Shown: one piece after another, positions 18,514 through 58,255 of the stretch | Layout of the letters: each line of letters starts with the position of its first letter | Numbering within the stretch: position 1 is the first letter of the stretch | Assembly (NCBI GenBank): GCA_015207195.1 | Contig: JADEXJ010000007.1 | Coordinates: 1-64,000 of the forward strand | DNA length: 64,000 nt | Direction of reading: 5' to 3' | Source of the DNA: Pleurocapsales cyanobacterium LEGE 10410 | Lineage (GTDB): Bacteria; Cyanobacteriota; Cyanobacteriia; Cyanobacteriales; Xenococcaceae | Translations under genes and position numbers: made by a program | The notes under the pieces: generated by a model | Told to the model about the DNA's origin: nothing | Database searches by the model: none | The model's input: the letters and a program-made list of their open reading frames with translations, nothing else

Positions 18514-18605
18514 AGTTTTGCTATTTAAGAAATCCTTTTAAAATAGTCATTGGCTATGGAAACTCCAACACAGAAAGCTTAGAGCTTATAGCTTTTGGCT
18601 TCAAA

Positions 18606-19963: not shown

Positions 19964-20006
19964 AATATTTTTACCTGTAAATTAATTTAGTGAATAAATA
20001 TCTGGA

Positions 20007-21035: not shown

Positions 21036-21052
21036 AATTGGTTTCTCAATTT

Positions 21053-30546: not shown

Positions 30547-33519
30547 CTAAGAAAAATACTGTTGAACTTTGCCAATTAGCTCTCCAGTAGAAAATCCTTT
30601 GGTGAGGAAATCAGTTCCCCCAAGACGACGAGCTTCTTGTCCCCATTCCTCTGCCAGACGGGAAGAGACAACTATAATCGGAAAATTCCAGTTGTTCTGG
30701 CGACAGCGATCGATTAAAGTAAACCCATCTAAATTGGGCATTTCAATATCTGTAATCATTAAGTTTGGGTGAGGATTAATCTGCAACCAGTTCCACGCTT
30801 CTAGACCATCAGAGCAAGCGTGAGTAGTGTATCCATAAGCTGAAAGACTGGCTTCAATACGGCGACGGATCAAAGCTGCATCGTCTACGATTAAGATTGT
30901 CTGAGATTGCTCTTCAGCAGCAGAGAAATTTACAGTATCTGATTCGCGATCGCCCGCGATACTAAAACCAGGACTTTCTGGAGTTGGTACTAAGTATTCC
31001 ATCAAGGAACTTAGTTCTAGAATAGGCATTAGAGTACTATCTGCTTGCAAACTCACTCCCATGATTCCTTGGGGCGCAACCAGGGGTGTAGGAATTGGCT
31101 GAATTTTCAATTCTAATTTGCCGAGCAATTTATCGGCGAGCAACCAAATGCCAGGCTGTTCTGGCTGTAGTCGAACATAAATGCCAATATTACCTGGGTT
31201 TAAAGAGCGATCGCGGAATCGAGGATACCAATAGCCCAGTAAATCCAAACCTGGTAGGGTTGATCCATCCTGAGTAATTTCCCAAGTATATCTAACCTGT
31301 GAACCCTCGGTTCTAACCGCAGCCAAATTTTCCCAAAGACTCGTCATGATTACGCGATCGGTAGGAATAGCAAAACTGCGATCGCCAGCCTGTAACAAGA
31401 TGCAAGGCACTAATAAATGAGGAACGGGGAAATGAATACTAAACGTTGTTCCTGTTCCTGGATTGGTTGATAAACTTAAAGAACCATTGAGCAAGGATAT
31501 TTGTTCTGCTACAACATCCATACCCACTCCTCTGCCAGAAACTTCGCTAACTTCATTTCGAGAACTAAAGCCAGGCTGACAGATTACAGACAATAATTCT
31601 TCATCGGTATCGGTGCGAGTTAGAGGGAATTTTAACTGTTGTGCTTTAGCTCGAACTTTTTGGGGGTCAATCCCTTTGCCGTCATCCTGGATAGTTAGAA
31701 CATAGGAACTACCATGCCGTTGTAAATTCAGGCTAAGAATACCTCGAACTGGTTTCCCTTGGGAAATTCTCTCTGCTGTTGTCTCTAAACCGTGGTCGAA
31801 AGCATTGCGAACTATGTGGAGCAAAATTGGCTCTAATCTTTTGCTGGTTCCGACATCAAGTTCAATTTGTTCTCCTTGAACTTTCAATTCTACGGGCTTA
31901 TCGTAGCGATTGATTAAATCTCTTAAAATCGCTCTCACTCTGAAAGACAAATTTTTGAAGGGAACAAGACGACTATCTTCGACAACATCTTTAAGCTCTG
32001 TGACGTGGCTATTAAGTTTTTCTAATCTTGCTGCGGTTTTTTTTGCCGTTTGCTCTGCTTCTGTACCTAATTCAGAAAGACGTAAACTATTTTCCAGTAA
32101 GCGATTGATTGTAATATAACCTTTGCGATATCTTTCAGGTGTAGGACTCTGGGAATTTTGAAGAGCTTTTCTGTCCAAGTTTTCTAGTAGAGCATAGTCA
32201 TCCTGAATTTGTCGTAGTTGAGTGATGTACTGAACGTTATCTTTAGCCAAATTAACTAACTTGAGCAAGTCTTGATGAAGATCCTGATAAAAATGCTCTA
32301 CGGTACGGGCGGAGATTAAAGTATCGACAATCGATTGGGCAGACTTATCTAGCCTCCTTAAAGGAATTGGAATTTGAATATTGCGATCAGACTGAGTATC
32401 TACCGTAGCAGGTGAACGAGAAGGTTTGGCTGATTTAATTGGTTTTGATATTGGTTTTGGAGGATCTGGTTGAGCTTCGCTCTCCTCAGATTCGAGATTA
32501 TCCAAGAGACTATCGATGCCTCCCAAATCTAAAGCATCCCCTGAAGAAGATGTCTTGGGCTGGGATAGTTCCAACTCTGGCTCTGGTTCTTCAGATTCGA
32601 GATTATCCAAGAGACTATCAATGTCTCCTAAATCTAAAGCATCCCCAGAAGAAGATGTCTTGGGCGGGGATAGTTCCAACTCTGCCTCTGGTTCTTCAGA
32701 TTCGAGATTATCCAAGAGACTATCGATGTCTCCTAAATCGGCAACCTCGGCGGTATTTTCTTCAGTAGTATCGGAATCGATGAACTTACCACCCTGTTTA
32801 GCAGAAGCCTTTAAACGGCAAAAATAATCATGCCACCGAGTTGTCCACAAGGAAGCATCAGGCTCGTTCAGCAGTAGAGCTGCTTCTTGCAATAGTGTTT
32901 GCCAACCTGAATCTAGTTCCAACTCTCGACCAATTTCTGCTAATTCTTCAATTAACTGGGTTGCTAGTTCGATAGTCGCTTGAGGAACTACTTCCTCAGA
33001 TAACTTATTGAGAGCGATATCTAAATCTAAAACCACCAAATCGAAACCTTCTTCAGCGAACTCGATTTGAACTTGAGCTTGTTCGTTCCAATCTTGGAGA
33101 TAGCTTTGTTGAATGTGCTGCTGAAGAACCTTAATTCGCTCTACTTTTGAGCGCACATCTCCTTCTTGATTGCCCAAGACACTGGCAATAATTTCTCCTC
33201 CTTCTTGAAGTATTTGTCGCAGTTGTCCATCTTCTAATGACGGAATTGTCTCAAGATAGCGTAATTCCGAGAGTAAATCCTCCAAAACCGTAGCTACGTC
33301 TAGAATCGCATCTGCTTTAACGGTTACCGAACCTCCTTTAATAGTATGAACAGCACGATACATTTTTTGAATATCTGCTGCCCAAGATTCATCTTCGAGA
33401 TTATCAACACAGGCAAGATAAGTTTCTAGATCTTTCTGAGAATCTAGCTCAAACATTTGGCGTAGTTCTCGTTCGAGCTGTAGTTCCGCAAGATCGAGAG
33501 GATCGGAAGGATGAGACAT
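30547..33519 (-). CDS. Chemotaxis hybrid histidine kinase CheA (locus 2, PilL/HmpE-like)
   Basis: A 990-residue kinase and last gene of locus 2. Order: Hpt domain (about 1-125, phospho-His58 in YRAVHTIKGGSV); a second helical region; an acidic linker with three 35-residue repeats (LGDIDSLLDNLESEE); dimer helices; GHKL ATPase (ILLHIVRNAFDHGLE, IQDDGKGIDP, GRGVGMDVVAEQ); CheW-like domain; receiver (about 865-990, TILIVDDAALIRR, LMITDIEMPNLDG, LTKGF). All expected motifs are present. It belongs with the PilJ/HmpD-type transducer upstream and probably controls type IV pilus function. Confidence 0.94.
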   Translation of the reverse strand: MSHPSDPLDLAELQLERELRQMFELDSQKDLETYLACVDNLEDESWAADIQKMYRAVHTIKGGSVTVKADAILDVATVLEDLLSELRYLETIPSLEDGQLRQILQEGGEIIASVLGNQEGDVRSKVERIKVLQQHIQQSYLQDWNEQAQVQIEFAEEGFDLVVLDLDIALNKLSEEVVPQATIELATQLIEELAEIGRELELDSGWQTLLQEAALLLNEPDASLWTTRWHDYFCRLKASAKQGGKFIDSDTTEENTAEVADLGDIDSLLDNLESEEPEAELELSPPKTSSSGDALDLGDIDSLLDNLESEEPEPELELSQPKTSSSGDALDLGGIDSLLDNLESEESEAQPDPPKPISKPIKSAKPSRSPATVDTQSDRNIQIPIPLRRLDKSAQSIVDTLISARTVEHFYQDLHQDLLKLVNLAKDNVQYITQLRQIQDDYALLENLDRKALQNSQSPTPERYRKGYITINRLLENSLRLSELGTEAEQTAKKTAARLEKLNSHVTELKDVVEDSRLVPFKNLSFRVRAILRDLINRYDKPVELKVQGEQIELDVGTSKRLEPILLHIVRNAFDHGLETTAERISQGKPVRGILSLNLQRHGSSYVLTIQDDGKGIDPQKVRAKAQQLKFPLTRTDTDEELLSVICQPGFSSRNEVSEVSGRGVGMDVVAEQISLLNGSLSLSTNPGTGTTFSIHFPVPHLLVPCILLQAGDRSFAIPTDRVIMTSLWENLAAVRTEGSQVRYTWEITQDGSTLPGLDLLGYWYPRFRDRSLNPGNIGIYVRLQPEQPGIWLLADKLLGKLELKIQPIPTPLVAPQGIMGVSLQADSTLMPILELSSLMEYLVPTPESPGFSIAGDRESDTVNFSAAEEQSQTILIVDDAALIRRRIEASLSAYGYTTHACSDGLEAWNWLQINPHPNLMITDIEMPNLDGFTLIDRCRQNNWNFPIIVVSSRLAEEWGQEARRLGGTDFLTKGFSTGELIGKVQQYFS
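32487..32740. repeat. Three 105-base in-frame tandem repeats in the locus 2 CheA gene
   Basis: The segment beginning CAGATTCGAGATTATCC recurs at 32487, 32592 and 32697, exactly 105 bases apart. It encodes a 35-residue unit (D-L-G-D/G-I-D-S-L-L-D-N-L-E-S-E-E plus a PKTSSSGDAL linker). Near-identity of the DNA points to recent expansion. Confidence 0.85.
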
Positions 33520-33579
33520 GGTTAAGTAGGAAAGATTAGGGACGAAGAGAGAAAATACTGAGCTTCTGGAGATGAATGG

Positions 33580-35454
33580 CTATACCGACTCTAATTTGGC
33601 AGAATTATTATCCCGAACAATTTCTGAGGAATTGGGGATAACATCTACTGTTGCTGTTTCTTGTCCGCTGCTAGGTAAACGGAAGAATCGGATAGTGCTG
33701 AGTAGATCTTGGGAGAGAGTTTCCATTTGTTGCGATTGTGCCAACGTTTTTTGAGTCAATTCTTCGGTTTTTTCGGCAAGATCGGCAATTTCTTCCATAA
33801 CCTTGGTAGTTGACTGTGCCGAGTTGATAATTTCTTGACTGGATAGAGCAACTACTTGTCCAGTGCGGACGGCTTCTTGAGTCGTATCTTGAACATTCTC
33901 AAAGATTTGACTAGATTGTTCGACACCTTGGGTAAATTCTCGTACCAATCCTCCTAAATTCTGCACGTTGGCATCGATAGAAGTCACTACGTTATGAATC
34001 TGGCTACTACGCTGTTCTAAACTAACCAAACCACCGCTAGTTCTTTGTGCCAAACTACTTACTTGATTGGCAATAGACTCAAATTCTCGCGCCACCACCA
34101 CAAACTGAGTTGGGTCTTTTTGTTCTGAAGCTCTTGCTGCTACCAAAGAAGCGTTCATCGCCAATACTTGGGTCATGCCCGAAATTTGGTTTTGCTCTTG
34201 GAGGAACTGATCGGTCAGTCCGACAAACTCTCCCAAGGTTTTCATTTGTTGTACGATCTGATCCGTTCCCTGTTGCAGTACGCCGATCCCTTTGTTTAGC
34301 GTCAAACTGGAATCACGTCCTTGTTCTACCGCCGACTGCAAATTTTGCAGAGAAGCAATTGAAGCCTGAGTTTGCTCGGCAGAATCTAGGGCAGACTTCA
34401 TAACTTTATCGGTTAATTCTAAAATCTGACGTACTGACTGCGCTTCTTTTTGAGCATAACCTGCTACTTGATTGGTCACTGTGTCCAACTGTTGCGTCTC
34501 TCGATTCACTCTGTCGGTAGCTCGAAAAACCTGTGCTAGAACTCCAGCTAGTTCTTCAATTAGACGATTTAGGGTATCAGAAACCAAACCCGTAACGCGA
34601 TCGCTAACTGGTGCTTCTACGGTAAAATCTCCCTCTTCAATTGCCGAAACCACGTCTAATAGCTGTCCTACATCTTGTTGCAAGACTTCGCTTTCCTGAC
34701 GAGACTCTAGTTCTTTGGCTGCTAATTCTTTAGTTCTTTCTTTGATTCGACCTTCTAAATCTAGATTGGCTTGTTCCAAAGACTGCTGAATTTGATTTAA
34801 ACGAAGAGTGTAGCTACGCAGCAGGATTAAAACCAGCACCCAACTAACTACTAAAATTGCAAAACTAACCCCTGCTAAAATCGCCGAGCGAGATAGGCGA
34901 TCGCCATAGGTTTCTATTTGTTCGGCTACTGATTGCTGAATATTTTCTAAGGTTGCTTCAACTCCCTCACTGTAGATTTGTTTTTGGATGCTGTATTCTT
35001 CACCCAAAAGTAGGCTTAGTGCCTCTGCCGAATTTCCTTGTCGGACTAACTCAAAGGCACGTTCTTCCATCTCAATCAGCTTGATGTTTGCTTCGTCTGT
35101 TTGACTGGCGTTTGCCTGTTGTTCTGGAGCAATAGACAAAACTTGATTAATCGCCTCATCTAAAGGAGGAACGTGTTCTAAATAACGCTCTTCCCATGCT
35201 AGGTTCCCCGTACTCGCTGCCATCCGTGCCGACATTGTAAGTACTTCATCCAAGTGAACAATTTGACCACTTAAATCCTGTAGCTTGAAGTTCTTGGTAA
35301 TTGCAGATTGAAAATTTTGATAGACACTCCAGGTATTTTTAGCAGAAATACCTACCATGACCGTACTGACAGCAGCCAAAATTGAAAACGTCGGAATCAA
35401 ACTCTGCTGAAACCTATTTTTCCCTGTATTTATTCGCTTAGAAGATAGAGTCAT
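33580..35454 (-). CDS. Methyl-accepting chemotaxis-like transducer (locus 2, PilJ/HmpD type)
   Basis: A 624-residue transducer with two membrane segments (about 19-37 and 188-212) around a helical periplasmic domain, then a HAMP-like region (about 250-305) and a signalling domain. The usual tip (QTNxLALNAAxEAARAGE) is divergent: MTQVLAMNASLVAARASEQ, then FVVVAREFESIANQV. I recall this form from cyanobacterial PilJ/HmpD proteins. It also ends in IRFFRLPSS. These transducers sit with type IV pili and are needed for motility or hormogonium formation. Ligand unknown. It lies 27 bases after the CheW gene in the operon. Confidence 0.92.
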   Translation of the reverse strand: MTLSSKRINTGKNRFQQSLIPTFSILAAVSTVMVGISAKNTWSVYQNFQSAITKNFKLQDLSGQIVHLDEVLTMSARMAASTGNLAWEERYLEHVPPLDEAINQVLSIAPEQQANASQTDEANIKLIEMEERAFELVRQGNSAEALSLLLGEEYSIQKQIYSEGVEATLENIQQSVAEQIETYGDRLSRSAILAGVSFAILVVSWVLVLILLRSYTLRLNQIQQSLEQANLDLEGRIKERTKELAAKELESRQESEVLQQDVGQLLDVVSAIEEGDFTVEAPVSDRVTGLVSDTLNRLIEELAGVLAQVFRATDRVNRETQQLDTVTNQVAGYAQKEAQSVRQILELTDKVMKSALDSAEQTQASIASLQNLQSAVEQGRDSSLTLNKGIGVLQQGTDQIVQQMKTLGEFVGLTDQFLQEQNQISGMTQVLAMNASLVAARASEQKDPTQFVVVAREFESIANQVSSLAQRTSGGLVSLEQRSSQIHNVVTSIDANVQNLGGLVREFTQGVEQSSQIFENVQDTTQEAVRTGQVVALSSQEIINSAQSTTKVMEEIADLAEKTEELTQKTLAQSQQMETLSQDLLSTIRFFRLPSSGQETATVDVIPNSSEIVRDNNSAKLESV

Positions 35455-35481
35455 AATTTTTACAATATAAAGTTGAAGTTT

Positions 35482-35895
35482 TTAACGCTGTGGTTGCCAG
35501 ATTTGTTGGGGAATATCTGAAAGCTGAAACTGGTGTTCTTGGGATAGCTCCTCGGCAGCCAAACTTCTTTCCATACGGTCTACGACTATTGCTACTCCTG
35601 CAAGATGCTCGGCAGACTTGTTGAGTCTGACGGCAGTAAGAGTCGAGCGCAACACTTTATTTTCTGTCGTCCCCAGAATTTTCTCGACCGAGACTAGGGG
35701 AACAATTTCATTTTGATAATGATAAATTCCCAAACAAGCAGCATCGTAAAAAGGTAAGGCTAATATTTGCGATCGCTCGACAATCAAAATATCTCTCACT
35801 AAATAAGCCGAAAAAGCTAGTTTTTTAGTACTTAGTAAAGCTATTAGATAGCGGTTTTGTAAAATTAAGCTAGAAGTTTTATTGTCATAGTCCAT
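35482..35895 (-). CDS. CheW-like adaptor (locus 2)
   Basis: A 137-residue single CheW domain (LQNRYLIALLSTKKLAFSAY, AACLGIYHYQNEIVPLVSVE, GVAIVVDRMERS). It couples the transducer at 33580-35454 to the CheA at 30547-33519. The position directly after the CheY gene (4 bases) and before the transducer fits pilI/hmpC in related loci. Sequence conservation with classical CheW is weak but the fold pattern is clear. Confidence 0.85.
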   Translation of the reverse strand: MDYDNKTSSLILQNRYLIALLSTKKLAFSAYLVRDILIVERSQILALPFYDAACLGIYHYQNEIVPLVSVEKILGTTENKVLRSTLTAVRLNKSAEHLAGVAIVVDRMERSLAAEELSQEHQFQLSDIPQQIWQPQR

Positions 35896-35899
35896 GTAC

Positions 35900-36256
35900 T
35901 TAAACCTTTTGTAAAGCCTTTGTTAAACTTTCTGGAGTAACTGGCTTAGTGATATAGTCGTTTGCCCCAGCCCGCTTAATTCCATAGTTGACTTCTACTG
36001 GAGTCTTTTTACTAGAACAAAAAATTACGTATTGATCGGCAGTAGCAGAATTACTTCTTAGCTGTCGTAAAAATTTATATCCATCTTGTTCTGGCATCAC
36101 AATGTCCAAAATTACCGCAGCATAGTTTTCTTCAGTTACTTTAGCTAATAGGTTAGTAGTATCTTCGCAATCATCAACCTGGTGACCCATTTTTTCCAAC
36201 ATAGAAACGATAAAATGGCGATCAACTGAACTATCATCAACAACTAAAAATTTCAT
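35900..36256 (-). CDS. CheY-type response regulator (locus 2, PilH/HmpB-like)
   Basis: A 118-residue receiver with no output domain. The acidic pair is D7-D8, the phospho-acceptor Asp51 is in AVILDIVMPEQDGYKFL, Ser in FCSSKK and Lys in YITKPV. It is the second gene of locus 2, four bases before the CheW gene. By analogy to PilH it receives phosphate from the local CheA. Intact. Confidence 0.93.
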   Translation of the reverse strand: MKFLVVDDSSVDRHFIVSMLEKMGHQVDDCEDTTNLLAKVTEENYAAVILDIVMPEQDGYKFLRQLRSNSATADQYVIFCSSKKTPVEVNYGIKRAGANDYITKPVTPESLTKALQKV

Positions 36257-36316
36257 GATTTTTCCCTTTAAATTTACTAATTAATCTGTTAACTTTTTTG
36301 AGGGCTAATATTCCTC

Positions 36317-37522
36317 TTATTGTTTGGCTGGAGCCAAATTTTGCAAGATGGTTTTCAACTCTAAAACAAACCTCTGATTGTCTTGTGAATTAAGTGGCTT
36401 ACTTAAAAACTCACTTTTAGACCACTTGGCACGTTGCTTGTTCATCATGGTTTTTTCGGCAGTTAGAATAACTAAGGGAATCGACGAAAGTTCGGGAACA
36501 ATCCGAATCTGCTTCATCAATTGAAATCCTGATATTTCAGGCATATTAATATCAATAAAAATAACGCTAGGTCTATATTTCAACAAAAAATTTAGTGCTT
36601 CTAAAGCATTACTACAGCATTCTACTCGATAACCCAAAGCTCGAACTACTGACGAAAATTGCTTAAGCAGCACGGGTGAATCATCAACGATCGCAATTTT
36701 AGAGGTATCAGACTTTGCTGATTTTTCAGCAACTGAAGGTTCATTTTCTTTTGGCAATAATTTGCAAGCTTCGCCAATGGATACTAACTCTTGTTTGATC
36801 AGCTTGCTAAACGTTTTAGCAATTCTTAAATTATCTTCTCCTAATCTATAACGAACCTCTTCTAAAGTACTACCAGAATTAACTAGCTTTTCTAGTTTGG
36901 CTCTTTCTACTACAGAAAGTCTTTTCCATTGCGAAGACTTAACATTACATTGAACATGACAATCAAAAGAAGGAATAAAATTTTCTATTTCTTTCCATTG
37001 ATTTCTACGCAACGCTATTTCAGATAAAACTTGCTCTATATCTAATCCTACAATCGGACGTAATTTGTCTATTTGGTTATTACTAATTAGTTTTACTTGC
37101 TGAATATTATAAGATAGATATTTTTCTAGCTCTGCAATAATATGAGAGCGAATAGCTTCAGAAAATTGTCGATAATTCAATATCTTGTTACTCAAAGCCA
37201 ACTCACCAAGCAAACCCACTATTAAAATATCGCTTTCAGTTTCAGATCGATGGATCAATTTTTTGATTATTTCTGGTGAAACTAATGTATTATTCCTTAG
37301 ACTGAGAATATAGTTTCTGAGAACATTTAAAATATCAGAAAAATTAATCAATTGATGATTTGAAAAAACGATTTTACCTCGGGAAAAGAATAAGTACCAT
37401 GCCCCTGAATTACTTGATTGATGGCTTTGATCGAACTTGATCTCAAGATATCCAGTAAAATTTAGCTTGTCTGTATTAATTTTCTGAATAATTAATAACA
37501 AGTTGTTTGAGGAAAGGTTCAT
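36317..37522 (-). CDS. PATAN-domain response regulator (locus 2, PilG/HmpA-like)
   Basis: A 401-residue regulator and first gene of locus 2. The N-terminal PATAN-like part includes NFTGYLEIKFDQS, WYLFFSRGKIVFSNHQL and the degenerate NSGSTLEEVRYRLGEDNLRI. The C-terminal receiver (about 273-395) has IAIVDDSPVLLK, VIFIDINMPEISGF, LTAEKT and LSKPL, so it should be phosphorylatable. Its N-terminal half is more divergent and AT-richer than the PATAN proteins of loci 1 and 3. It probably conveys CheA output to the pilus machinery. The 270-base gap upstream is the likely promoter region. Confidence 0.9.
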   Translation of the reverse strand: MNLSSNNLLLIIQKINTDKLNFTGYLEIKFDQSHQSSNSGAWYLFFSRGKIVFSNHQLINFSDILNVLRNYILSLRNNTLVSPEIIKKLIHRSETESDILIVGLLGELALSNKILNYRQFSEAIRSHIIAELEKYLSYNIQQVKLISNNQIDKLRPIVGLDIEQVLSEIALRRNQWKEIENFIPSFDCHVQCNVKSSQWKRLSVVERAKLEKLVNSGSTLEEVRYRLGEDNLRIAKTFSKLIKQELVSIGEACKLLPKENEPSVAEKSAKSDTSKIAIVDDSPVLLKQFSSVVRALGYRVECCSNALEALNFLLKYRPSVIFIDINMPEISGFQLMKQIRIVPELSSIPLVILTAEKTMMNKQRAKWSKSEFLSKPLNSQDNQRFVLELKTILQNLAPAKQ

Positions 37523-47051: not shown

Positions 47052-50000
47052 CTATTTAGACGGCATAATGCGATTGATAGTAGCGATCAATTCCTGTTCG
47101 GGACAAGGTTTTACTAAGTAGGCTGCTGCACCCAATTCCATGGCTAATTTACGATGTTTATCGCTATCGCGGGAAGTCAGAATAATAATTGGCAGGTCAC
47201 TATATTCAGGATCGTTTTTAACAGCTTTCAAAAATTGGAACCCAGTCATCATCGGCATTTCCAAATCGCATACCACTAATTCAACTTTCCCCGATTTCTT
47301 TAATTCGGTTAGAGCATTAATCCCATTATCAGCTTGAAGCACCTGCTGACTAACTTTCTCCAAAGACATAGCAATAGTTCGGCGTAGACTATTAGAATCA
47401 TCAACTACCAAAAGGGTTTGGGGCATTGAAGACGTAGCAGGAGGAAGTTGCTGTGTACTGTTAAAATCGCTGCTGGGTAAAGCTTGGAAATTAGACCCGC
47501 CTAAAAAGGCTCGTTGGCTCATAGTATTGCTACGATATTGAGAATCTTTGAGCAATGCTGCACCATCAATTACCAAAGTAAAGCTGCTGTCTTTTAGGAC
47601 ACTACAGCCATAGACATATCGTGGAGGTATGATTGCACTACCAAGAGGTCTAATTACCAACTCTTGTTCTCCTAATACGCGATCTACTTCTAATCCGATA
47701 AAGCCATTTTGACGACGCAACAGTAAAATCGGATTGTTCAAGCTAGATTCTGAATCTTCCAATTGAGCAAGAGTGCGAGGATACTCGATCATGCTGGATA
47801 GCTGACGCACTGGAACCATTTCTACATCATCTTGAGTAGGCCAATGTAAAACTTTTTGTCCCTCAAAAATCTGAACCTCTTTGGAAGTTGGCAGAATAAT
47901 TCTCTCAATCGCATCAATCAACAAGGCATAAGTCATGCCTGAAGCCTGAGCCAGCATCAATTTAGCAATGGTCAGAGTAAGAGGGATTTGTAGCGAAAAC
48001 GTCGTGCCTTTTCCTGGGGTAGACTCAATGGAAATGGTGCCGTTCATTTCTTCAATTTGCGAACGAACTACATCCATACCTACACCTCTACCAGATAAGT
48101 CACTTAGTTTTTCGGCAGTAGAAAAGCCTGGTTCAAATAATAGCTCTAATAACTGTGATGGTGGAGTAACGGCTGCTTGTTGAGCGGAAATCAGTCCCTT
48201 TTCGATACCAGTCTGTTTGATTCTCTCGATATTAATGCCTTTACCATCATCACCGACTTCAATTACGGTTTGGCTACCTTGATAATATGCCCGTAAGAAT
48301 ACCGTACCTGTTTCTGGTTTATTAGTCCGCGCTCTTTCCTCTGGTTTTTCTAAACCATGATCGAAGGAGTTACGCACCAAATGCAGCAGAGGATCGTAGA
48401 GTTTTTCTTCAATAGTTTTGTCAATGAGAATATGGCTACCAGTAATATTCAGTTCGGCGTTTTTGTCGTGAGTTACCGAAAGCTGCTTGAGCAAACGAGG
48501 AAAGCGGTTAAATAGTCTACCAATGGGAGACATTCTGGTTTCAATTAGCTCATCTCTCATGTTTAACAGCATTCGCTGTTGTTTTTGAGTGTCTCTTCTA
48601 GTCTGCTTGTTGTGATTTTTGATCTTCTCGGCAATATTTGCTAGTTCAGAATTACTAGCAGTAGTCAAATTTAAAAGTTCATTTAGCCTGGCGTCGGGGT
48701 TTTCTGGAGTGGCAGAAGGTAATACGGATTTATAATTTGTAGCTTGAGATTGAGTTATATTGTTTAATTTTACGGGTAATTCTTGTAATAATTGCTGTTG
48801 CTGGGGCGAGAGACAGACCTCATCGACCACTTCAATCAGCTCGTTAACTATTTGCTCGCTATAGCTAATTTTATCTAGTAGCTGCTGTACAAACTGACCA
48901 ATTTGCTCGTCTTTTAGAATATTTCTATTTTGATTGATTAATAGTTCTCCAACTAAATCGTTTAGTTTTTCCAGAGATTCTAAATTGACCCTGACTGTTT
49001 TATTAGCTTTAGTTTTGGCAGTTTGTTTATTACTTTGTTTAGATGAACCAAATCGAGATTTTCTAACATCTCTGGTGGATATTTCTTGTGGAGGAACAGC
49101 TTTTTGTTTAAATGATTCTGGGGGAGTCAGAGGAACTAAAGATGCTTCTACTTCAATTCTTTCTGGTTCACCTGATGATGTCTGTTGCTCTTTTAGCTGT
49201 TCGACAGCAGTGTCTTCGCCCCAGATCTGGGTCATTAATTCACTTGAATCTTCATCATTTTCAAACTCAAATTGACCAGACTCGGATTCAGTATCTTCGT
49301 CAAATTCTTCGGTTAGATCGCTACCAAAAATATCAGCAGCGTCTTGGTCATCATCATCATCGTCATCTCGATCTATAGCTGCCATCGGCTCGCCAAACAT
49401 ATCTTCAGTCATGGACTCGGCATCTAACTGTGCTGGGTTGCCTTCTTCGTCCAAATCAGCTTGATCTACTGACCAAAATGCTCCCGCATCTTCAGAATCT
49501 TCTTCGGTTCTCTCAGTCGGCTCTACCGTTCCCGTAAATTTTTGCAATTGAGCAGAAGGTTCGCCACCCCGTTCGCGATCGCCCTCCATCACCTGCTTTT
49601 GCGCCTGTTTGAAGTTGTCGATCGCAGCTTTGGTAATTTCTTCAACTAGATCGGGGTTGACCTGTAGGGCGGTCAGAATTGTTTGCGCGATATCACCTAA
49701 ACCAGATAAATTCAGCGATTGAGATAAACCTAGGAATATTTCTGCCTGAGATTGCAATACCTCAGTCATGATGGCGGGATCGCCTTCGGCTAAAGCTACA
49801 GATAGTTCCTGAATCCTTTCGGGAACAACAGATTCAAAAAAGGATTCTACTACATCTAATCCTAGTTCTTCTGAGGTCGGGAAAGCATCCTGATCGCTGA
49901 GGTAATCACCAAAGATTTCAGTTAGTTCGGCAAAAATCCCCGCAGCACGATTGAGAATTTCTTCACGGTCGATGGGAGCTTTGCTAAATTCTGCCGTCAG

Positions 50001-50324
50001 AGGAATCCTGAGACAATCGTAGCTGGCGTAGAGTAGTTTTTTGGTCTGGCGATCAATTTCTAGTTCGGGATTGTAAAGAGCCTTAAAGACATCTTCCATC
50101 GAATGAGCTACGGTTTTGATCGTCTCCAACCCCACATTAGCTGCGCCACCTTTGAGGGTGTGAGTAGCACGCATTAGCTTATTAACTCTCAGAGGGCGAT
50201 CGCTAAGTTCGATATCGCCGTCGTTAATAGCAAACAATTCCTGTTCGATAGTTTCTAATAATTCGGGGGCTTCTTCTAAAAAGTATTGATAGGCTTGGTC
50301 GCGAATGCTGGGGTCGGTAATCAT
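47052..50324 (-). CDS. Chemotaxis hybrid histidine kinase CheA (locus 3, PixL/PtxE-like)
   Basis: A 1090-residue kinase. Order: Hpt domain (about 1-130, phospho-His55 in MRATHTLKGGAANVG); a second region resembling an Hpt without the His; a very acidic linker (DRDDDDDDDQDAAD and similar, about 270-400); dimer helices (VNLESLEKLNDLVGELLI); GHKL ATPase (LLHLVRNSFDHGLEKP, VGDDGKGINIERI, GRGVGMDVVRSQIEEM); CheW-like domain; receiver (about 970-1090, LLVVDDSNSLRR, VVCDLEMPMMTGF, LVKPCP). All active-site motifs are intact. It is paired with the GAF-rich transducer upstream, so it is the likely kinase of a light-responsive pathway. Confidence 0.94.
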   Translation of the reverse strand: MITDPSIRDQAYQYFLEEAPELLETIEQELFAINDGDIELSDRPLRVNKLMRATHTLKGGAANVGLETIKTVAHSMEDVFKALYNPELEIDRQTKKLLYASYDCLRIPLTAEFSKAPIDREEILNRAAGIFAELTEIFGDYLSDQDAFPTSEELGLDVVESFFESVVPERIQELSVALAEGDPAIMTEVLQSQAEIFLGLSQSLNLSGLGDIAQTILTALQVNPDLVEEITKAAIDNFKQAQKQVMEGDRERGGEPSAQLQKFTGTVEPTERTEEDSEDAGAFWSVDQADLDEEGNPAQLDAESMTEDMFGEPMAAIDRDDDDDDDQDAADIFGSDLTEEFDEDTESESGQFEFENDEDSSELMTQIWGEDTAVEQLKEQQTSSGEPERIEVEASLVPLTPPESFKQKAVPPQEISTRDVRKSRFGSSKQSNKQTAKTKANKTVRVNLESLEKLNDLVGELLINQNRNILKDEQIGQFVQQLLDKISYSEQIVNELIEVVDEVCLSPQQQQLLQELPVKLNNITQSQATNYKSVLPSATPENPDARLNELLNLTTASNSELANIAEKIKNHNKQTRRDTQKQQRMLLNMRDELIETRMSPIGRLFNRFPRLLKQLSVTHDKNAELNITGSHILIDKTIEEKLYDPLLHLVRNSFDHGLEKPEERARTNKPETGTVFLRAYYQGSQTVIEVGDDGKGINIERIKQTGIEKGLISAQQAAVTPPSQLLELLFEPGFSTAEKLSDLSGRGVGMDVVRSQIEEMNGTISIESTPGKGTTFSLQIPLTLTIAKLMLAQASGMTYALLIDAIERIILPTSKEVQIFEGQKVLHWPTQDDVEMVPVRQLSSMIEYPRTLAQLEDSESSLNNPILLLRRQNGFIGLEVDRVLGEQELVIRPLGSAIIPPRYVYGCSVLKDSSFTLVIDGAALLKDSQYRSNTMSQRAFLGGSNFQALPSSDFNSTQQLPPATSSMPQTLLVVDDSNSLRRTIAMSLEKVSQQVLQADNGINALTELKKSGKVELVVCDLEMPMMTGFQFLKAVKNDPEYSDLPIIILTSRDSDKHRKLAMELGAAAYLVKPCPEQELIATINRIMPSK

Positions 50325-50425: not shown

Positions 50426-53400
50426 TTACTTGACTTTGAACTTAGATACGCTAGATTGTAAATTTTGCGCCAGTTGTTCTAGCTGCTCAAAAGAAACAGA
50501 AATTTTACCTGAATCTTGAGAGGTTTCGTTAGCAATTTCCGCAACCTGTCCCATTACCTGGGTTACAGAAGCAGCCTCTTGAGTTTGGGCATTGGCAGCA
50601 CTAGTAATCCCCTGAACCAACTCTTTAATTTCAGCGGTGGCAGCCACAATTTCATTCAAACTATCGCGGGTTTCGTTTACCAAATTTGTACCTTCGGCAA
50701 CCTGTTCCACACCAGCTTCCATCGCAGCAGCCACTTCTTTAGTCTCTTCTTGGATTTCTCTAACCAATTTCTCAATCTCAGTAGTCGCTTCAGTAGACTG
50801 CAATGATAGGTTACGGACTTCATCGGCTACTACCGCGAAACCTTTACCATATTCCCCAGCGCGAGTTGCCTCAAGTGCAGCGTTCAACGCTAGCAGGTTG
50901 GTTTGGGTCGCAAAACTGCTAATCAGACTGACCACCTTGGAGATCTTTTGGGAAGAATCGCTCAGGCGTTTAACCCGTTTTCCTGCATCGGCTACGGTTT
51001 CTCGAATACTGACAATACTATCAACCGTATTGTTCATGGCGCGATCGCCAGTCTGGACGGTTTGATTTGCTAGTTCGATCGCCACCTCTACTTTTTGGGC
51101 GTTTTCGGTAGTTACTGTAGAAGCATCGATCATCGACTGTACCCGATCTAAAGCTTCCTGTAGCTCCATCAACTGTCTTTCCGACTGTAAGGACAAGCCT
51201 TTAATTGCCGAACTACTAGAGCCTGTAGTTTCTGTTACCTGGGAAGCAGCAGTCTGTACCTGTTCTACAATATCCTTAAGTGAATCGAGAGTAGTATTAT
51301 AAGCTCCAGCTACTGTACCAATTTCAGTTTCTGTAACCTTGGCTCTAACGGTTAAATCTCCGCTAAATGCAGGTCTGACCGTTTTTAAAATATCTAAAGC
51401 TTGCTTTTGTAATTCTTCTCTGGCTGCTTTTTCTCTGGCTACTGTTTCAGCCAAGCTTTCTGACTGAACCCGTAACTGCTCGTAATAGTCAATTTGCTGA
51501 ATAGCGATACCCAACTGACTGGCTAACTGGGCGATTTGTTCGGCTTCCATAGTTTGCCAGTTTCTCGCACCAGAATTTTGATAAACCCCTAGCAGTCCCC
51601 AAAGTTTTTCATCCTGGAAAATAGGCGCGATGATGTAGGCTTTTGCCTGATATCTCTCTAGAGATTTGATATAGCAATCGGGGAACTTTTGGGTATAAAT
51701 ATCATCTACTACGGTGTATTTCTTTCCTTCGCTAGTATACTTACCCCCTTTAGTTTCTTCCATGTAGGTGTCGTTGAAGGTAATATTATCGGTTGCGCCC
51801 CACTTGCGGAGAACACAGCGAGCGTTTTCCGTGCGACTGCTACTGATATCGTCATCTTTCTTTTGCGCTACTAATAAAGAAACCCAATCACCAGCTATAG
51901 TTTCTGCCAAGACCTGACCTGTAAAATCTTCATTGAACTGATAGACAATAGTGCGGTCAACCTCTAAAGCTCGATTGACTTCTTGAGTAGTAATCTCAAA
52001 TACCTCGTCAATATTTTTTGCTTTACGGATTTGTTCGCTGATTTTGCTACTAGTTTTATCTAGTTTTGACTGCCTTTTGAGGGTAGTTGTATAGTTGATC
52101 TGCTGCATCGCCACCCCTACCTGTAAACCAAGCTGTCTGAGGGTTTCAACTTCAAATTCTTGCCAGCGACGCGCCCCTTTGTTTTGATAACAGCCGATTA
52201 GACCCCAGAGTCTTTTGCTGCCAAACATATCGCTATCGGCAATAAAGATCGGAGCGAGGGCGTAGGCTCTTGCCTGCATCTGCTCTAACAGTTCGACATG
52301 ACACTGTTTATGACCTTGCGTATAAATATCTTCGACGCTAAAGGTCTCGCCGTTTTTATAGCGACCGCCTTTAGTATTCTGAAGGAAGGTATCTTCAATA
52401 AAGGGAATAATTTTGGTCAAGCTAGACCAACCAGGAGCAACCGAATCGGCGACAAAGTTTCCGCTATAGTCTGGGTTAAAGCGATAGATAGCGACGCGAT
52501 CCACGTCTAAAATTTCTCGTCCTTTATCTGTGGCAATCTGCCAGACTGCCTTTTCATCTCTGGATAAGCGCAGTTTTTCCAAACTTTTAGACAGGCTTTT
52601 TTCTCGTTTAAACGCTCGTTCCATTTGCTTGCTTTGGAACTCGGCATTGCGGAAATAAGCAGTTTGTTGCAGGGGTTTGACAAAACGAGTCGCATATCCT
52701 TGAAGCTGGGTAATTTCGCTCTCCTGCCAGTTACGAGTAGTAGAGTTTTGATAAACTCCTATTACCCCCATTAACTGATTGTTAGCATGAATCGGTACGA
52801 TGATATATGCTTTGGCTTCTATCTCCTCAAATTTTTCGAGTACGGAAATAGATAGCCCTTTGGTTTGTAAGTCATTAGCAACGTAGTAAGGCTCAAACTC
52901 TCCCCCTTTAAAGTGGAAGTCATAATCTAGCGTCGAACCAATAGGCTGCCACTTTTCTCCCTTCGATTCGGCTAATATCTGACCGCTCCAGTCGGGATAA
53001 AAGGCACAAACTGCTACGCGATCGACCTTCATCGAGGCACGAATTTTGTCCGCCCACCCCTGCATCATACGTTCGGCATTCTGATTGATTGAAGTTAGAA
53101 AATCTCGTTCGGTAATCAGCTCTGCTTGTTTTGCTTTAAACTTCAAATCACGAATCGAGCTTGTTTGTTCTAGAGGTGAACTAAATTTGGGTGCAGATTG
53201 TACCACTAGATCGACTTCGGTTTGTTGCCAATTGCGAGTCCCTGAATTTTGATATATTCCTAACATTCCCAACAGGCGATCGCCAGATTTAATCGGAACT
53301 ATGATATAAGCCTTGGCTTCTAAGGACTCAATCTGTTCGACAAAGCAGGGCGAAATATCCATGTCATTGATGTCACGGCAAACATACTGTGATTTACAGT

Positions 53401-54256
53401 TATCTGGCGTAATAAAGCAGTCATTATCAAAGGAGTTAGACCCTTTTTTCCACATCGAATCTACAGATTCAGCTAGAATTGCCCCACTGCCGTCAGGATT
53501 AAAGCCGTAGACTAAAGCCCGATCTGCCTTGAGATTGTGACGTAATTCTTGCAGCATTTCTGCCATCGACTGCTCCATCGACTGCTCCATGGTAGACACC
53601 AAGTCTTTCGCTGCGCTAGTTTTGGAGCTTAACAGGGGCGACTGCAATACGCGAGTTATTTCTACTGTTAGCTGATAGAGTAAATTAATTTCGTCTTCTT
53701 GCCATGAGCGAGGTTGTTGACACTGTTGAACTACCAGTAACCCCCAAGCTTGATTCAGTTGATATCCACTGCTTTGAGCAAAGGAATCTAACAAAATGGG
53801 CAAAGCTAAAGAAGCTTGAATCTGGAATTTTTCAAATAGCTGCTTTTGGTAGGGTGTAACGCGATCGCTATCGGGATGCTCGATCGCTACATATCCCTGA
53901 GCTTGGAAATCGACTGCTTTGAGTGCGCCAAAACAATTACAGGAAAGGGTTTCGTTCATTGCTGGAGTCCATCCTGGAACTAGAGCTTCGGCAATAACTT
54001 TACCGATATCGCTACTATCAAAACGGTAAATCAGCACCCTGTCGGCTACAAATTCTTGCTGCACCACTTTGACTAGGTTACTAAAAAACTCCTCCTGCTC
54101 GGCAGATTGACGCACCTGTTTGACGACCTTCCACAGGCGATCGCGTTCTTGTTTGTACAGACTTTTTTTAATTTTCTGCACTAAGTCTGATTTTGGGCTA
54201 CTTGCTTCTGTAGCTCCGTTGGAAGTTTGCTCTTGATAAGTACTTGATGAATCCAT
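50426..54256 (-). CDS. Five-GAF phototaxis-type transducer (cyanobacteriochrome/MCP fusion, locus 3)
   Basis: A 1276-residue soluble transducer; no membrane segment. Five GAF domains occupy about 50-205, 230-365, 395-535, 560-722 and 750-922. At the canonical bilin-cysteine position GAF4 has Cys652-His653 ([10 protein letters not shown]), GAF5 has Cys861-Tyr862 ([10 protein letters not shown]) and GAF2 has Cys304-Phe305 (SPCFVEQI). GAF1 and GAF3 lack it. GAF1 and GAF2 have an extra Cys-Phe (C108, C280) where DXCF-type cyanobacteriochromes carry a second cysteine. A HAMP-like stretch and an MCP domain follow, with tip [20 protein letters not shown]. It resembles PixJ/TaxD1 and Nostoc PtxD. Bilin binding is inferred. 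Confidence 0.92.
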
Positions 54257-54331: not shown

Positions 54332-54913
54332 TTACTGAGAGTAGTTAAACTCAGTTTTTATAGAAAAGAAATTAAAAATTTCTTCTGAATCGATCAGCAT
54401 AATAATGTCGTTGTCAGAACTTGTAAAATATCCATGTAGAAAGGGCAGGACATCTTCGGAAAATATTTCTGCTGAAGAAGATTTAAACTTTGATAAATCG
54501 TGTTCTATTAAATTGTCAATCCCCGAAACAACTAATCCTATTGATTGCCCCTGAACTTGAACTACCATGACTAATAGATCTTTCTGGAAGTTATTGCTAT
54601 CCAACGGTGGTGGATATCCTAATAGGTTTTCCAAGTCTACAATCCACAACATTTCACTGCGCCAACCATAGATTCCCAAGACACAATAAAACATCTGTGG
54701 AACGGGTAAAATATCCTCTGGAGAAATAGTAATTACTTCTGTAACTATTTCTGCATCTAATAGGGCAATATCTCCCTGAACAGTTGACTTGTGACTCTTT
54801 TCCGACTTACCTAGTTGAAACTGTAAAAATTTGCGGACTTGTTTGGAATTAGACTGAATATCAGAATTTGCACCAATATTCAAAGATAAAGAATTAGCAG
54901 ATGTGCTTAACAT
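54332..54913 (-). CDS. CheW-like adaptor (locus 3)
   Basis: A 193-residue protein with a polar N-terminal stretch and one divergent CheW domain (KFLQFQLGKSEKS, LGIYGWRSEMLWIVDLENLLG, MVVQVQGQSIGLVVSGI). It should link the GAF transducer to CheA. The position, 18 bases after the CheY gene and about 75 before the transducer, matches pixI/ptxC in related loci. Conservation is low, so the call rests on fold pattern plus context. Confidence 0.85.
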   Translation of the reverse strand: MLSTSANSLSLNIGANSDIQSNSKQVRKFLQFQLGKSEKSHKSTVQGDIALLDAEIVTEVITISPEDILPVPQMFYCVLGIYGWRSEMLWIVDLENLLGYPPPLDSNNFQKDLLVMVVQVQGQSIGLVVSGIDNLIEHDLSKFKSSSAEIFSEDVLPFLHGYFTSSDNDIIMLIDSEEIFNFFSIKTEFNYSQ

Positions 54914-54931: not shown

Positions 54932-55297
54932 TTAACTAGCAATAAGTTGCTGCACCTTGTCGATCAATTCGTCGCGGTTTACTGGTTTGGCAAGATAGGC
55001 ATCTGCCCCTACTACATCTCCCCACATCTTGTCGGCTTCCGTAGACTTGGAAGAACATAAAATAACTGGAATTGTTTTGGTTGCTGTATCTGCTTTTAAG
55101 GTACGACATAGTTCAAAACCACTCTTCCCCCCCATAACTACATCTAAAACGATTACGTTGGGCTGATATTGACCTACTTTTTCTAAAGCCTCCTCCGCGC
55201 TTTCTACATCCATAACGCTCAAGCCAGCTTGTTCTAAGTATGTAGTAGTGGTTCTACGATCAGTTAGACTATCATCGACTACCAGGACTTTACTCAT
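54932..55297 (-). CDS. CheY-type response regulator (locus 3, PixH/PtxB-like)
   Basis: A 121-residue receiver. The acidic pair is D8-D9, the phospho-acceptor Asp52 is in NVIVLDVVMGGKSGFEL, Ser in LCSSKS and Lys in LAKPV. The usual MPxxDG loop after the Asp reads MGGKSG. It is followed closely by the CheW gene. By analogy to PixH it takes phosphate from the local CheA. Confidence 0.93.
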   Translation of the reverse strand: MSKVLVVDDSLTDRRTTTTYLEQAGLSVMDVESAEEALEKVGQYQPNVIVLDVVMGGKSGFELCRTLKADTATKTIPVILCSSKSTEADKMWGDVVGADAYLAKPVNRDELIDKVQQLIAS

Positions 55298-55540: not shown

Positions 55541-56806
55541 TTAAGTAACCAGATTGGGCTTGGCAGATAGTTGCGAATCTTCTAAAGACTTATGAGCAAT
55601 ATACTTGTTTACAACATTGGTTATCTTATCTATTTCTATAGGCTTGGGAACGAAAGCATCTGCGCCAGAAACTTTAGCTCTCACTCGGTCAATAATCCCA
55701 TCGTTACCAGTTAAAAAAACAATAGGTATATGTTTCAATTTGCCAACTCTTCTTATCTGAGTACAAATCTCATAGCCGTTAACAATAGGCATGCCAATAT
55801 CTAAAAATATCAGGTTGGGATTGGCTTTGATAAGAGAGGGTAAAGCTTGCAGAGGTTCTTGAATGGTGATGCAACGATACCCATGCTTAGTAATAATTTG
55901 CTCTAGAACTTTACAAACTTGCGGGCTATCATCGACACAAGCAATTAGAGGTTTACTTGAATCTTTAATTTCTTTAGTAGTTGGGAACTTCTTACTATTT
56001 CTAGGAGCAGGAAGATCTTCAACTTCAATGATGTCTAATAAATCTTGCTGAATATAAGGAATAAGTGAGGACGTTAATTGGCGAACATCTTTTCCCATTC
56101 TCGAACTTAAGTCTCTTAAAGTACGCTGACCATCTAACAAGCGTACAAAGTTTTGATAAACAATACTCGATACTTTTTCGCGCATTCGACCTTGTTTGCG
56201 CAATACGGGAGCTAGGTTGGGTGACCATTTTGCTAATCCTTTTTGCTGCCAAATTAACCATGCTTGACTGGCTTCATCAAGAACTTGCTCGATGTTTACT
56301 AGGGAAATAGACATTTGTGAGCCAGAAGTCAAAAACGAAGATGTAGAAGCCTCTTTTTGGGTTACTCTTAGCTGTTGCTTATTTTCCAACTGTAGTAAAT
56401 CGAACAAAATTTCTCTAGCTCTGGTTTTGACCAATTCAATTGCTTGCTCGCGTCCAACTAGTTTTCGTTCCAATAAAGCTTTTAGAGCGTGATAATCTCC
56501 GCCATCTGATTTGCTAGAAAAATCGATATCTGTTCTATACCAGTCAATTTTGGGACAGTATTTATCAGTTAATCTTTTCCAAGAACGAAATGGATGAGTT
56601 CCTCCATCAGCCCAAACTAACCTACCTAGGCAAAAATGTATTTTCCAAACAGTTTGACTGCTTCCTTTAATAATAATTTGCCCAGTAAAATGTTTTTGCT
56701 TAAAGTATATTAACTGATTAGATAGCTTACTTAAGCCTGGATTGCTCATGTCTTTTGGGGGTTTAGATTGTGGAAATAATTCACAATAAAGTTTATCAAG
56801 AACCAT
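55541..56806 (-). CDS. PATAN-domain response regulator (locus 3, copy 2)
   Basis: A 421-residue PatA/PixG-type regulator. PATAN region: KHFTGQIIIKGSSQTVWKIH, CLGRLVWADGGTHPFRSWKR and VYQNFVRLLDGQRTLRDLS. The receiver (about 287-405) has IACVDDSPQVCKV, LIFLDIGMPIVNGYE, LTGNDG and VPKPIEI. All phosphorylation residues are present. It is a clear paralogue of the next gene upstream (57077-58255). A 243-base AT-rich gap separates it from the CheY gene, so locus 3 may have an internal promoter. Confidence 0.9.
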   Translation of the reverse strand: MVLDKLYCELFPQSKPPKDMSNPGLSKLSNQLIYFKQKHFTGQIIIKGSSQTVWKIHFCLGRLVWADGGTHPFRSWKRLTDKYCPKIDWYRTDIDFSSKSDGGDYHALKALLERKLVGREQAIELVKTRAREILFDLLQLENKQQLRVTQKEASTSSFLTSGSQMSISLVNIEQVLDEASQAWLIWQQKGLAKWSPNLAPVLRKQGRMREKVSSIVYQNFVRLLDGQRTLRDLSSRMGKDVRQLTSSLIPYIQQDLLDIIEVEDLPAPRNSKKFPTTKEIKDSSKPLIACVDDSPQVCKVLEQIITKHGYRCITIQEPLQALPSLIKANPNLIFLDIGMPIVNGYEICTQIRRVGKLKHIPIVFLTGNDGIIDRVRAKVSGADAFVPKPIEIDKITNVVNKYIAHKSLEDSQLSAKPNLVT

Positions 56807-57076: not shown

Positions 57077-58255
57077 TTAACTAGATATCATCATAGTAGG
57101 TGCGTTAGCAGCAGAAAATTTGTCTATGGTTTGGAGAATTTTATCTACCTCAATCGGTTTGGAGAGAAAATCGGATGCGCCACAAACTTTTGCCTTGACT
57201 CGGTCAAATACGCCATCATTACCCGTTAGCATAATAATTGGTACTTCTTGTAGTTTGGAAACACGTCTAATTTGAGTGCAAACCTCATAACCATTCAAAA
57301 TAGGCATTCCTATATCTAGGAAAATCATCTTCGGGTTAACGCCAATAAGTTTAGGGACAGCTTGTATTGGCTGTTGAATACCCAAAAATCTATAGCCAGC
57401 TTTGACGATAATTTGGTTCATTATTTGGCAGATTTGCGGACTATCATCAATACAGGCAATGAGGTGATTATTTCCTGAAGCTATCGGTTTGTTTGCAGAA
57501 TTGGTCTTAGAATTAACTGAGTTTTGATCGGGAACTTTGACCAACTCCAGTAATCCTTTATGAACATAAGGATAAATAGACTTGGTAAGTAGTAGCAAAT
57601 CCTTGTTCATTCCTACTGCTAAATCTCTAAGACTTCTACGACCGTCTAGTAATTTAACAAAATTTTGGTAAACAACTGTGGGAACTGCTTTTTCTAATTG
57701 TTCTCGGCTTTTAATTTTAGGCGCATGGTCGGGATATACCGAGGTAAAACCACTTTGAATCCAAGCAGACCACTGCTGTTGCATTTGTTTAAAAGCAGAT
57801 TCAATATTAATACTAATCAAAGAATGGTTGCTAGTCTCGCCTATTAAGGTGGAGAGAGATGCTTTTTCTGCCTCTAATTCTAAAGGAGTTGACTTTTCTT
57901 GCTGGAAAATATCAAAAAATACTTCGATAATTTTACTTACAACAAGCCGTTGGATATTCTCAGGGGTAGATAGATTCTGCTTTAGTAAAACAATTAGGCT
58001 GCTGTATTCTGAACATTTGTATTTTTCACTATCACGGAAGTTAACTTGCTTTAAATCAACCTTGGGACAATATTTGCTCAAATGCCTTTGCCAAGAACGG
58101 TGAGAGTGAATACCGCCACTTGCCCAAAATAACTTACCTTCGTTAAAATATATTTGCCAATTAGTGTTGTTGCTTACTTTAGTTTTGATATGAGCAATAC
58201 CAGTAAAAGATTGCTTTTTAAGATTATTAAGTAAAGCAAATATCATATTCTTCAA
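57077..58255 (-). CDS. PATAN-domain response regulator (locus 3, copy 1)
   Basis: A 392-residue regulator with the same domain order as its neighbour: PATAN part (QSFTGIAHIKTKVSNNTNWQ, FNEGKLFWASGGIHSHRSWQ, VYQNFVKLLDGRRSLRDLA) and receiver (LIACIDDSPQICQIM, MIFLDIGMPILNGYE, LTGNDG, LSKPIEVDKI). Similarity runs along the whole length but many positions differ, so the duplication is not recent. A 270-base gap separates the two copies. Having two outputs could allow opposite or graded responses to light; this is inference. Confidence 0.9.
   Translation of the reverse strand: MKNMIFALLNNLKKQSFTGIAHIKTKVSNNTNWQIYFNEGKLFWASGGIHSHRSWQRHLSKYCPKVDLKQVNFRDSEKYKCSEYSSLIVLLKQNLSTPENIQRLVVSKIIEVFFDIFQQEKSTPLELEAEKASLSTLIGETSNHSLISINIESAFKQMQQQWSAWIQSGFTSVYPDHAPKIKSREQLEKAVPTVVYQNFVKLLDGRRSLRDLAVGMNKDLLLLTKSIYPYVHKGLLELVKVPDQNSVNSKTNSANKPIASGNNHLIACIDDSPQICQIMNQIIVKAGYRFLGIQQPIQAVPKLIGVNPKMIFLDIGMPILNGYEVCTQIRRVSKLQEVPIIMLTGNDGVFDRVKAKVCGASDFLSKPIEVDKILQTIDKFSAANAPTMMISS

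Follow-up and report, generated by a model that had tools for sequence, protein, structure and literature searches.

A predicted soluble five-GAF phototransducer of the PixJ/PtxD kind from a Pleurocapsales cyanobacterium, with an insert-Cys GAF5 and an unusual set of cysteines in GAF2

Results

In the 64,000-nucleotide stretch of the Pleurocapsales cyanobacterium LEGE 10410 genome analyzed here (hereafter the window), the open reading frame at 50426-54256 encodes a methyl-accepting transducer that, judged by its domain make-up, adds a new member to the PixJ/PtxD kind. Its violet/UV-type sensor is most likely GAF5, an insert-Cys domain, whereas the part that does look unusual is the cysteine set of GAF2, and not the overall combination of cysteines in which the original prediction had placed the novelty. 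GAF2 and its sister GAF3 belong to a divergent clade that, together with its cysteine pattern, appears to be the unstudied part of this receptor. All features of the window described below lie on the reverse strand.

The reading frame is genuine: over its 1276 aa, Pfam finds five GAF stretches (E 1.7e-71) and one MCPsignal match (E 3.5e-42), the MCP signalling domain spanning aa 1086-1241 (50534-51001). Domain limits were set at aa 40-209 for GAF1, 215-367 for GAF2, 382-534 for GAF3, 554-722 for GAF4 and 735-924 for GAF5. Kyte-Doolittle hydropathy in 19-residue windows peaks at only 1.18, so that no transmembrane helix is predicted, the receptor is soluble by prediction and the expectation of a soluble five-GAF transducer is borne out. 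Searches of NCBIfam returned nothing specific for it, with nine families each far under the cut-off.

The sequence shows two marks of the PixJ/PtxD type, namely bilin-type GAFs fused to an MCP signalling domain and a cluster with CheW, CheA, CheY and PATAN-receiver genes. In the order of the one-strand run, Pfam identifies two PATAN-like proteins with receivers (PixG-like, 57077-58255 and 55541-56806), a CheY-like receiver (PixH-like, 54932-55297), a CheW-like protein (PixI-like, 54332-54913), the five-GAF MCP itself, and a CheA-like kinase with Hpt, ATPase, CheW-like and receiver domains (PixL-like, 47052-50324). The PATAN assignment was inferred from near-cut-off matches to DUF4388, which we take to be the same domain; against a cut-off of 25 bits, the protein at 57077-58255 scores just above (26.5 bits) and that at 55541-56806 just below (24.5 bits). 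Around the relatives, a scan that covered the PATAN-like, CheW, MCP and CheA genes found this order kept wholly or partly. For the GAF2-GAF3 stretch, the named relatives are from Myxosarcina sp. (77% identity), Waterburya agarophytonicola (71%), Pleurocapsa sp., Hyella patelloides and genomes of Xenococcaceae, and by these matches the window belongs with that group. All five GAFs recur in the Myxosarcina protein (L050), while six are found in that of Waterburya (L051) and in three others (L052, L053 and L054), the extra one being a second GAF2-type domain. Elsewhere in the LEGE 10410 genome we found four matches to bilin reductase and three to T2SSE-family (PilB/PilT-type) ATPases, two of them adjacent; since the T2SSE family is present in 14 of 14 control genomes, it is on its own weak evidence for pili.

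A tree of 113 GAFs was built by a quick method, which left 39 of its 110 inner branches open and joined the long rows L081_g1 and L139_g1. The domains of the receptor are spread over separate lineages, with the exception of the sisterhood of GAF2 and GAF3, and the "graded loss" of bilin cysteines that had been read from the protein finds no footing in this arrangement; GAF3, the sister of GAF2, did on the tree lose the canonical cysteine. Synonymous sites were saturated and 4 of 12 comparisons gave an infinite dS; dN/dS was therefore dropped in favor of pN against pS alone. In all five GAFs pN lies far under pS, and for GAF1 and GAF3 the values (pN 0.13-0.18 vs pS 0.67-0.81, from two relatives) fall within the range of GAF2 and GAF5, which indicates that these two domains are constrained even though they lack chromophore cysteines.

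For GAF4, GAF2 and GAF5, the top matches among solved structures are cyanobacteriochrome GAFs, for example 6bhn (NpR6012g4) and 3w2z (AnPixJg2). GAF4 (52091-52597) is of cyanobacteriochrome type and has C652-His at the canonical position, just as predicted. It keeps the key Asp, with Ile for Trp in the WXD motif, so that the WXDXXL of XRG domains reads I-E-D-T-F-L here, and it falls into a 17-row clade (support 98) apart from that of AnPixJg2. The Trp of WXDXXL is missing throughout the GAF4 clade, and, compared with AnPixJg2, the GAF4 of the window also has seven residues inserted ahead of KRLWGL.

GAF5 (51485-52054) likewise has the expected Cys-Tyr pair (C861-Tyr) at the canonical position, but its reading as a plain, red/green-like Cys-Tyr domain had missed C814 (codon 51815-51817), which lies in a loop insertion before D-T-Y. 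With this cysteine and the canonical C861, GAF5 is, as far as sequence can tell, an insert-Cys cyanobacteriochrome. In the set compared, all 35 GAFs that exceed 180 aa have a cysteine in the insertion stretch, several of these rows being close copies; in L065 and L073 the loop is built differently. In the tree, GAF5 shares a 21-row group (support 94) with the third GAF of a seven-GAF MCP of Nostoc linckia (L135), and it is this grouping, together with the insert cysteine, that makes it most likely the violet/UV-type sensor of the receptor. Set beside the characterized insert-Cys cyanobacteriochromes NpF2164g3, NpR1597g2, Mbr3854g4 and Mbl3738g2 by their descriptions, GAF5 shares the Cys insertion before D-T-Y and has Tyr after its canonical Cys; the spacing from insert Cys to Tyr is 17 residues in GAF5, compared with 28 in UG1 and 16 in UG2 as counted from the residue numbers in the consulted part of that report (PMC5240096).

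GAF1 (53630-54139) is the first GAF of PixJ-type receptors and has Tyr at the canonical position, along with C106 and C108. It falls into a clade of 16 rows (support 99) made up of first GAFs of PixJ-like proteins, Nostoc included, in which the canonical cysteine is found in 0 of 16 rows, Tyr or His standing there instead. The DXCF-like cysteine ascribed to GAF1 exists insofar as C108 occupies the DXCF column; the Asp of a DXCF domain, however, is replaced by C106, and cysteine recurs at the C108 site in just 6 of the 16 clade rows, against 10 of 16 for the C106 site. A survey picked by the TPYQ motif and its variants (27 rows, from which the false row L105 was removed) gave cysteine at the C106 site in 16 of 26 and at the C108 site in 12 of 26. 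Because this motif spans the canonical site, the lack of a canonical cysteine in the survey is circular, and the 16-row clade was used for that count. As a side observation, Cys in the place of the key Asp (codon 53939-53941 for C106) comes largely from one family, 14 of the 16 such first GAFs among the 26 belonging to that of the window.

GAF2 (53156-53614) has canonical C304 followed by Phe (codon 53345-53347) and three further cysteines, namely C280 in an Asp-Cys-Phe motif (53417-53419), C287 after Asn in the loop of the alpha3 region (53396-53398) and C293. In the phmmer alignment, D279-C280-F281 is set against D-T-H of AnPixJg2, and the column of Asp279 is invariant across 23 aligned GAFs; C280, which follows it directly, is therefore one residue before the DXCF cysteine, the motif being Asp-Cys-Phe and not Asp-Xaa-Cys-Phe. 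Of the two Cys-Phe pairs that had been predicted here, one canonical and one at the DXCF position, the first is thus where it was expected, the second is one column early, and C287 and C293 had been passed over. No His follows the canonical cysteine, and the loop is shortened, with C287 falling there. C293 is unique to the LEGE 10410 copy among 14 aligned rows, and this copy also has Asn for the Tyr of NDIY ahead of the canonical cysteine.

Up to E 0.01, GAF2 matches 25 distinct sequences of solved structures, which come from other cyanobacteriochromes and from phytochromes. A structural model of the domain reached pLDDT 86.7 and pTM 0.84, with about 65 locally at aa 275-284, the least certain part, which holds C280, and 88 at aa 285-294, which holds C287. 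The model matches miRFP670nano (Z 22.0), AnPixJg2 (5zoh, Z 20.3; 3w2z, Z 19.4), Slr1393g3 (Z 19.5) and TePixJ (Z 19.4), followed by bacteriophytochromes at about Z 17; since non-bilin GAFs are matched as well, at about Z 16, the comparison speaks for the fold only.

GAF3 (52655-53113) was said to be free of cysteines, which is right for the chromophore position, occupied by Ser here and by Ala in the same-slot relatives, though C417 is present. With GAF2 it forms one clade of 20 rows in the 113-GAF tree (support 100, stem length 0.95). Among the matches listed, a GAF2-type profile scored strongly in 34 of the 388 genomes that represent the order, under five family codes; the edge of the clade is a chosen score gap (at least 177 bits inside, 143 bits for the next match), and the tree placement covered part of these 34 genomes. 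From the clade we extracted 50 distinct domains. Of these, 36 have the canonical cysteine, and in every case the next residue is Leu or Phe. Among these 36, the alpha3-region cysteine (C287 site) occurs in 23 and the D-C-F cysteine (C280 site) in 11, vs 0 of 14 at either site in the domains that lack the canonical cysteine; 24 of the 36 have at least one of these two cysteines, 10 have both, and 12 have neither. In relatives of the L061 and L071 type, Tyr occupies both sites. When these columns were left out of the tree building, two changes were needed for the D-C-F cysteine, four for the alpha3-region cysteine and two for the canonical one. An independent-pairs test of whether the extra cysteines depend on the canonical one was not significant (2 pairs, median p 1), and with only two changes of the canonical cysteine on the tree, such pairs cannot reach significance.

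Within a 15-row Xenococcaceae group (support 100/99), cysteine stands at the C280 site in 10 of 10 main-slot rows and in 1 of 5 duplicated-slot rows, the main-slot GAF2 group itself having a support of 93/82 and no star. In the extra GAF2 slot (L051, L052, L053, L054 and L056), Gly or Asp stands at the D-C-F cysteine site in four of the five, and the alpha3-region cysteine is present in all five.

Discussion

What the cysteines of GAF2 do is the point on which several explanations have to be weighed. We tentatively propose, as a possibility well short of an even chance, that the GAF2 lineage is a separate dual- or triple-Cys class, marked by canonical Cys-Leu/Phe, a second cysteine that recurs in the alpha3 loop and, in Xenococcaceae, a further cysteine after the key Asp, and standing beside the Cys-less sister GAF3; a thiol-based color switch would then act from the A-ring/alpha3 side and not from the DXCF position or an insertion. 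A known domain with some likeness is AM1_1186g2, a red/blue dual-Cys XRG domain, whose second cysteine, C2510, is described as part of the alpha3 helix and stands seven positions ahead of Gln2517, which comes immediately after the equivalent of Phe308 (PMC6628166). By residue count, C2510 would fall at about position 302 of AnPixJ if no gap intervenes, while phmmer places C287 of GAF2 two residues beyond it, after a 5-residue gap of ambiguous placement. C287 lies in the loop that matches the alpha3 region, and the GAF2 model has no helix there. The two domains may be alike in having the second cysteine in this region, with a register uncertain by about two residues and AM1_1186g2 known to us by description, and they differ in that GAF2 also has C280.

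It is quite conceivable, though still on the lower side of even, that GAF2 binds its bilin through C304 alone, with C280 and C287 as tuning residues or bystanders (making contacts with the A-ring, for example) and with no second thioether. In the parts of the report on an XRG cyanobacteriochrome that we drew on, the residue after the Asp, Val1018 of MCC3606390g2, is described as lying near the A-ring and supporting isomerization of phycocyanobilin to phycoviolobilin, without ligating C10 (PMC11284453); from the CXDXXL motif, we infer that Val1018 would be the equivalent of C280. The position of C280 off the DXCF column and the 12 of 36 domains with neither extra cysteine also fit such a role. 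Weighing against it are the presence of cysteine at the C280 site in every main-slot row, as opposed to one duplicated-slot row out of five, and the recurrence of the alpha3-region cysteine in 23 of the 36 canonical-Cys domains.

Alternatively, GAF2 may no longer bind bilin at all, its cysteines being redox or metal ligands or the result of neutral drift, which we regard as doubtful but about as deserving of attention as our own proposal. The missing His, the shortened loop and the long stem of the clade point in this direction, as do the further alterations ahead of the canonical cysteine in the LEGE 10410 copy (C293 and the Asn for Tyr of NDIY). Against it, the canonical cysteine is kept in 36 of 50 domains, and the 14 domains without it have neither extra cysteine, a pattern that nevertheless rests on few events, given the two changes on the tree.

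The original reading of GAF2 as a DXCF-type violet/blue sensor, with GAF1 as a remnant of one, is very improbable: C108 does occupy the DXCF column, which C280 misses by a single residue, but the register against the invariant Asp279 and the tree speak against it for GAF2, which is far from the DPCF-type GAFs of the same genome (L081), and the missing Asp, the Tyr at the canonical position, its own clade and the poorly conserved C108 speak against it for GAF1.

The proposal of a separate dual- or triple-Cys class would be of interest because the position of the second cysteine sets the colors that a bilin GAF senses. If it is true, the lineage would be one where extra cysteines turn up repeatedly at unusual places; members with zero, one or two of them, next to a Cys-less sister, would form a natural series for the evolution of dual-Cys photoswitches, and new optical tools might be drawn from it. 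We found no study of the GAF2/3 lineage in the literature, which is a weak absence given that most subscription papers lay outside the scope of the search.

For the receptor as a whole, the combination of single- and dual-Cys modules with GAFs devoid of the canonical cysteine holds up in the alignments, apart from the roles given to GAF2 as DXCF and to GAF5 as red/green-like. That this combination is distinctive, as had been suggested, finds no support, for the joining of single- and dual-Cys GAFs is already known from PtxD (NpF2164) of Nostoc punctiforme, which, according to the sections consulted, is a single MCP with dual-Cys GAFs alongside further bilin-binding ones (PMC5812497). Among 37 listed proteins with at least two GAFs, a set chosen by similarity to the LEGE 10410 receptor, 25 contain a Cys-His GAF as well as an insert-Cys one. 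As described, PtxD also resembles our protein in being a multi-GAF MCP in a che cluster with insert-Cys GAFs next to bilin GAFs of other types, and differs in having seven GAFs, at least six of them reported to bind bilin, where five are found here (PMC5812497, PMC5240096). We took the Nostoc linckia protein L135 as a PtxD relative on account of its seven GAFs, its cysteine-bearing insertions in the second and third GAFs, and the insert cysteine of the third at position 542 (counted from a start codon of our choosing), vs C546 as reported for NpF2164g3 (PMC5240096). L135 shares with the LEGE 10410 receptor a same-clade GAF1 without canonical cysteine and has two insert-Cys GAFs, but no domain in the GAF2/3 clade. 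PixJ1 of Synechocystis, from what its description offers, is likewise an MCP from a pix gene cluster with a bilin-free first GAF, the bilin being bound by the second GAF only; it contains two GAFs, the second one blue/green, along with two transmembrane domains, in contrast to the five GAFs without a predicted transmembrane helix or a DXCF motif here (PMC5812497).

Taken together, we consider it highly probable that the five-GAF protein serves a phototaxis system of the Pix/Ptx type as its photoreceptor and transducer, with the following roles for its GAFs and the path from CheA to the pili; bilin binding, colors, phosphorylation and motility output would follow from what is known of the family. 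The second GAF of PixJ1, in this family, is presumably of DXCF type. Light would be sensed most likely by GAF4 and GAF5, and possibly by GAF2. GAF4 would bind phycocyanobilin through C652 with a dark state that is probably red-absorbing, although its color is no safe guess from sequence, and GAF5 would bind it with a dark state probably in the near-UV/violet and a green-to-orange switched state. GAF2 may hold a bilin via C304, with C287 and/or C280 tuning it or forming a reversible bond to it. GAF1 and GAF3, which would carry no covalent bilin, may serve as relays or dimer spacers, and could bind bilin non-covalently. The light-driven change would pass down the GAF chain and alter the MCP tip, which would control the CheA-CheW complex, and phosphoryl groups would be passed on to CheY and to both PATAN-type regulators, steering type IV pili. 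For the relative Waterburya agarophytonicola, the genome report, in the portion available, lists homologues of PixG, H, I, J and L together with type IV pilus genes (PMC8580901). These observations suggest that Xenococcaceae have PtxD-like receptors for multi-color taxis.

The genome of LEGE 10410 also encodes another multi-GAF protein, L081 (contig C225), with DPCF-type GAFs and one TAG within one matched stretch (L015). Besides the run described above, two more chemotaxis-type clusters lie in the window, making three within 64 kb. One, at 16144-22279, comprises a CheA with receiver (789 aa), a 384-aa MCP with a weak match to the PilJ N-domain, a protein with two CheW domains and a receiver protein. 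The other, at 30547-37522, is diverged and comprises a CheA-like kinase, CheW, a PATAN-like receiver and a 624-aa MCP whose signalling domain scores under the Pfam cut-off.
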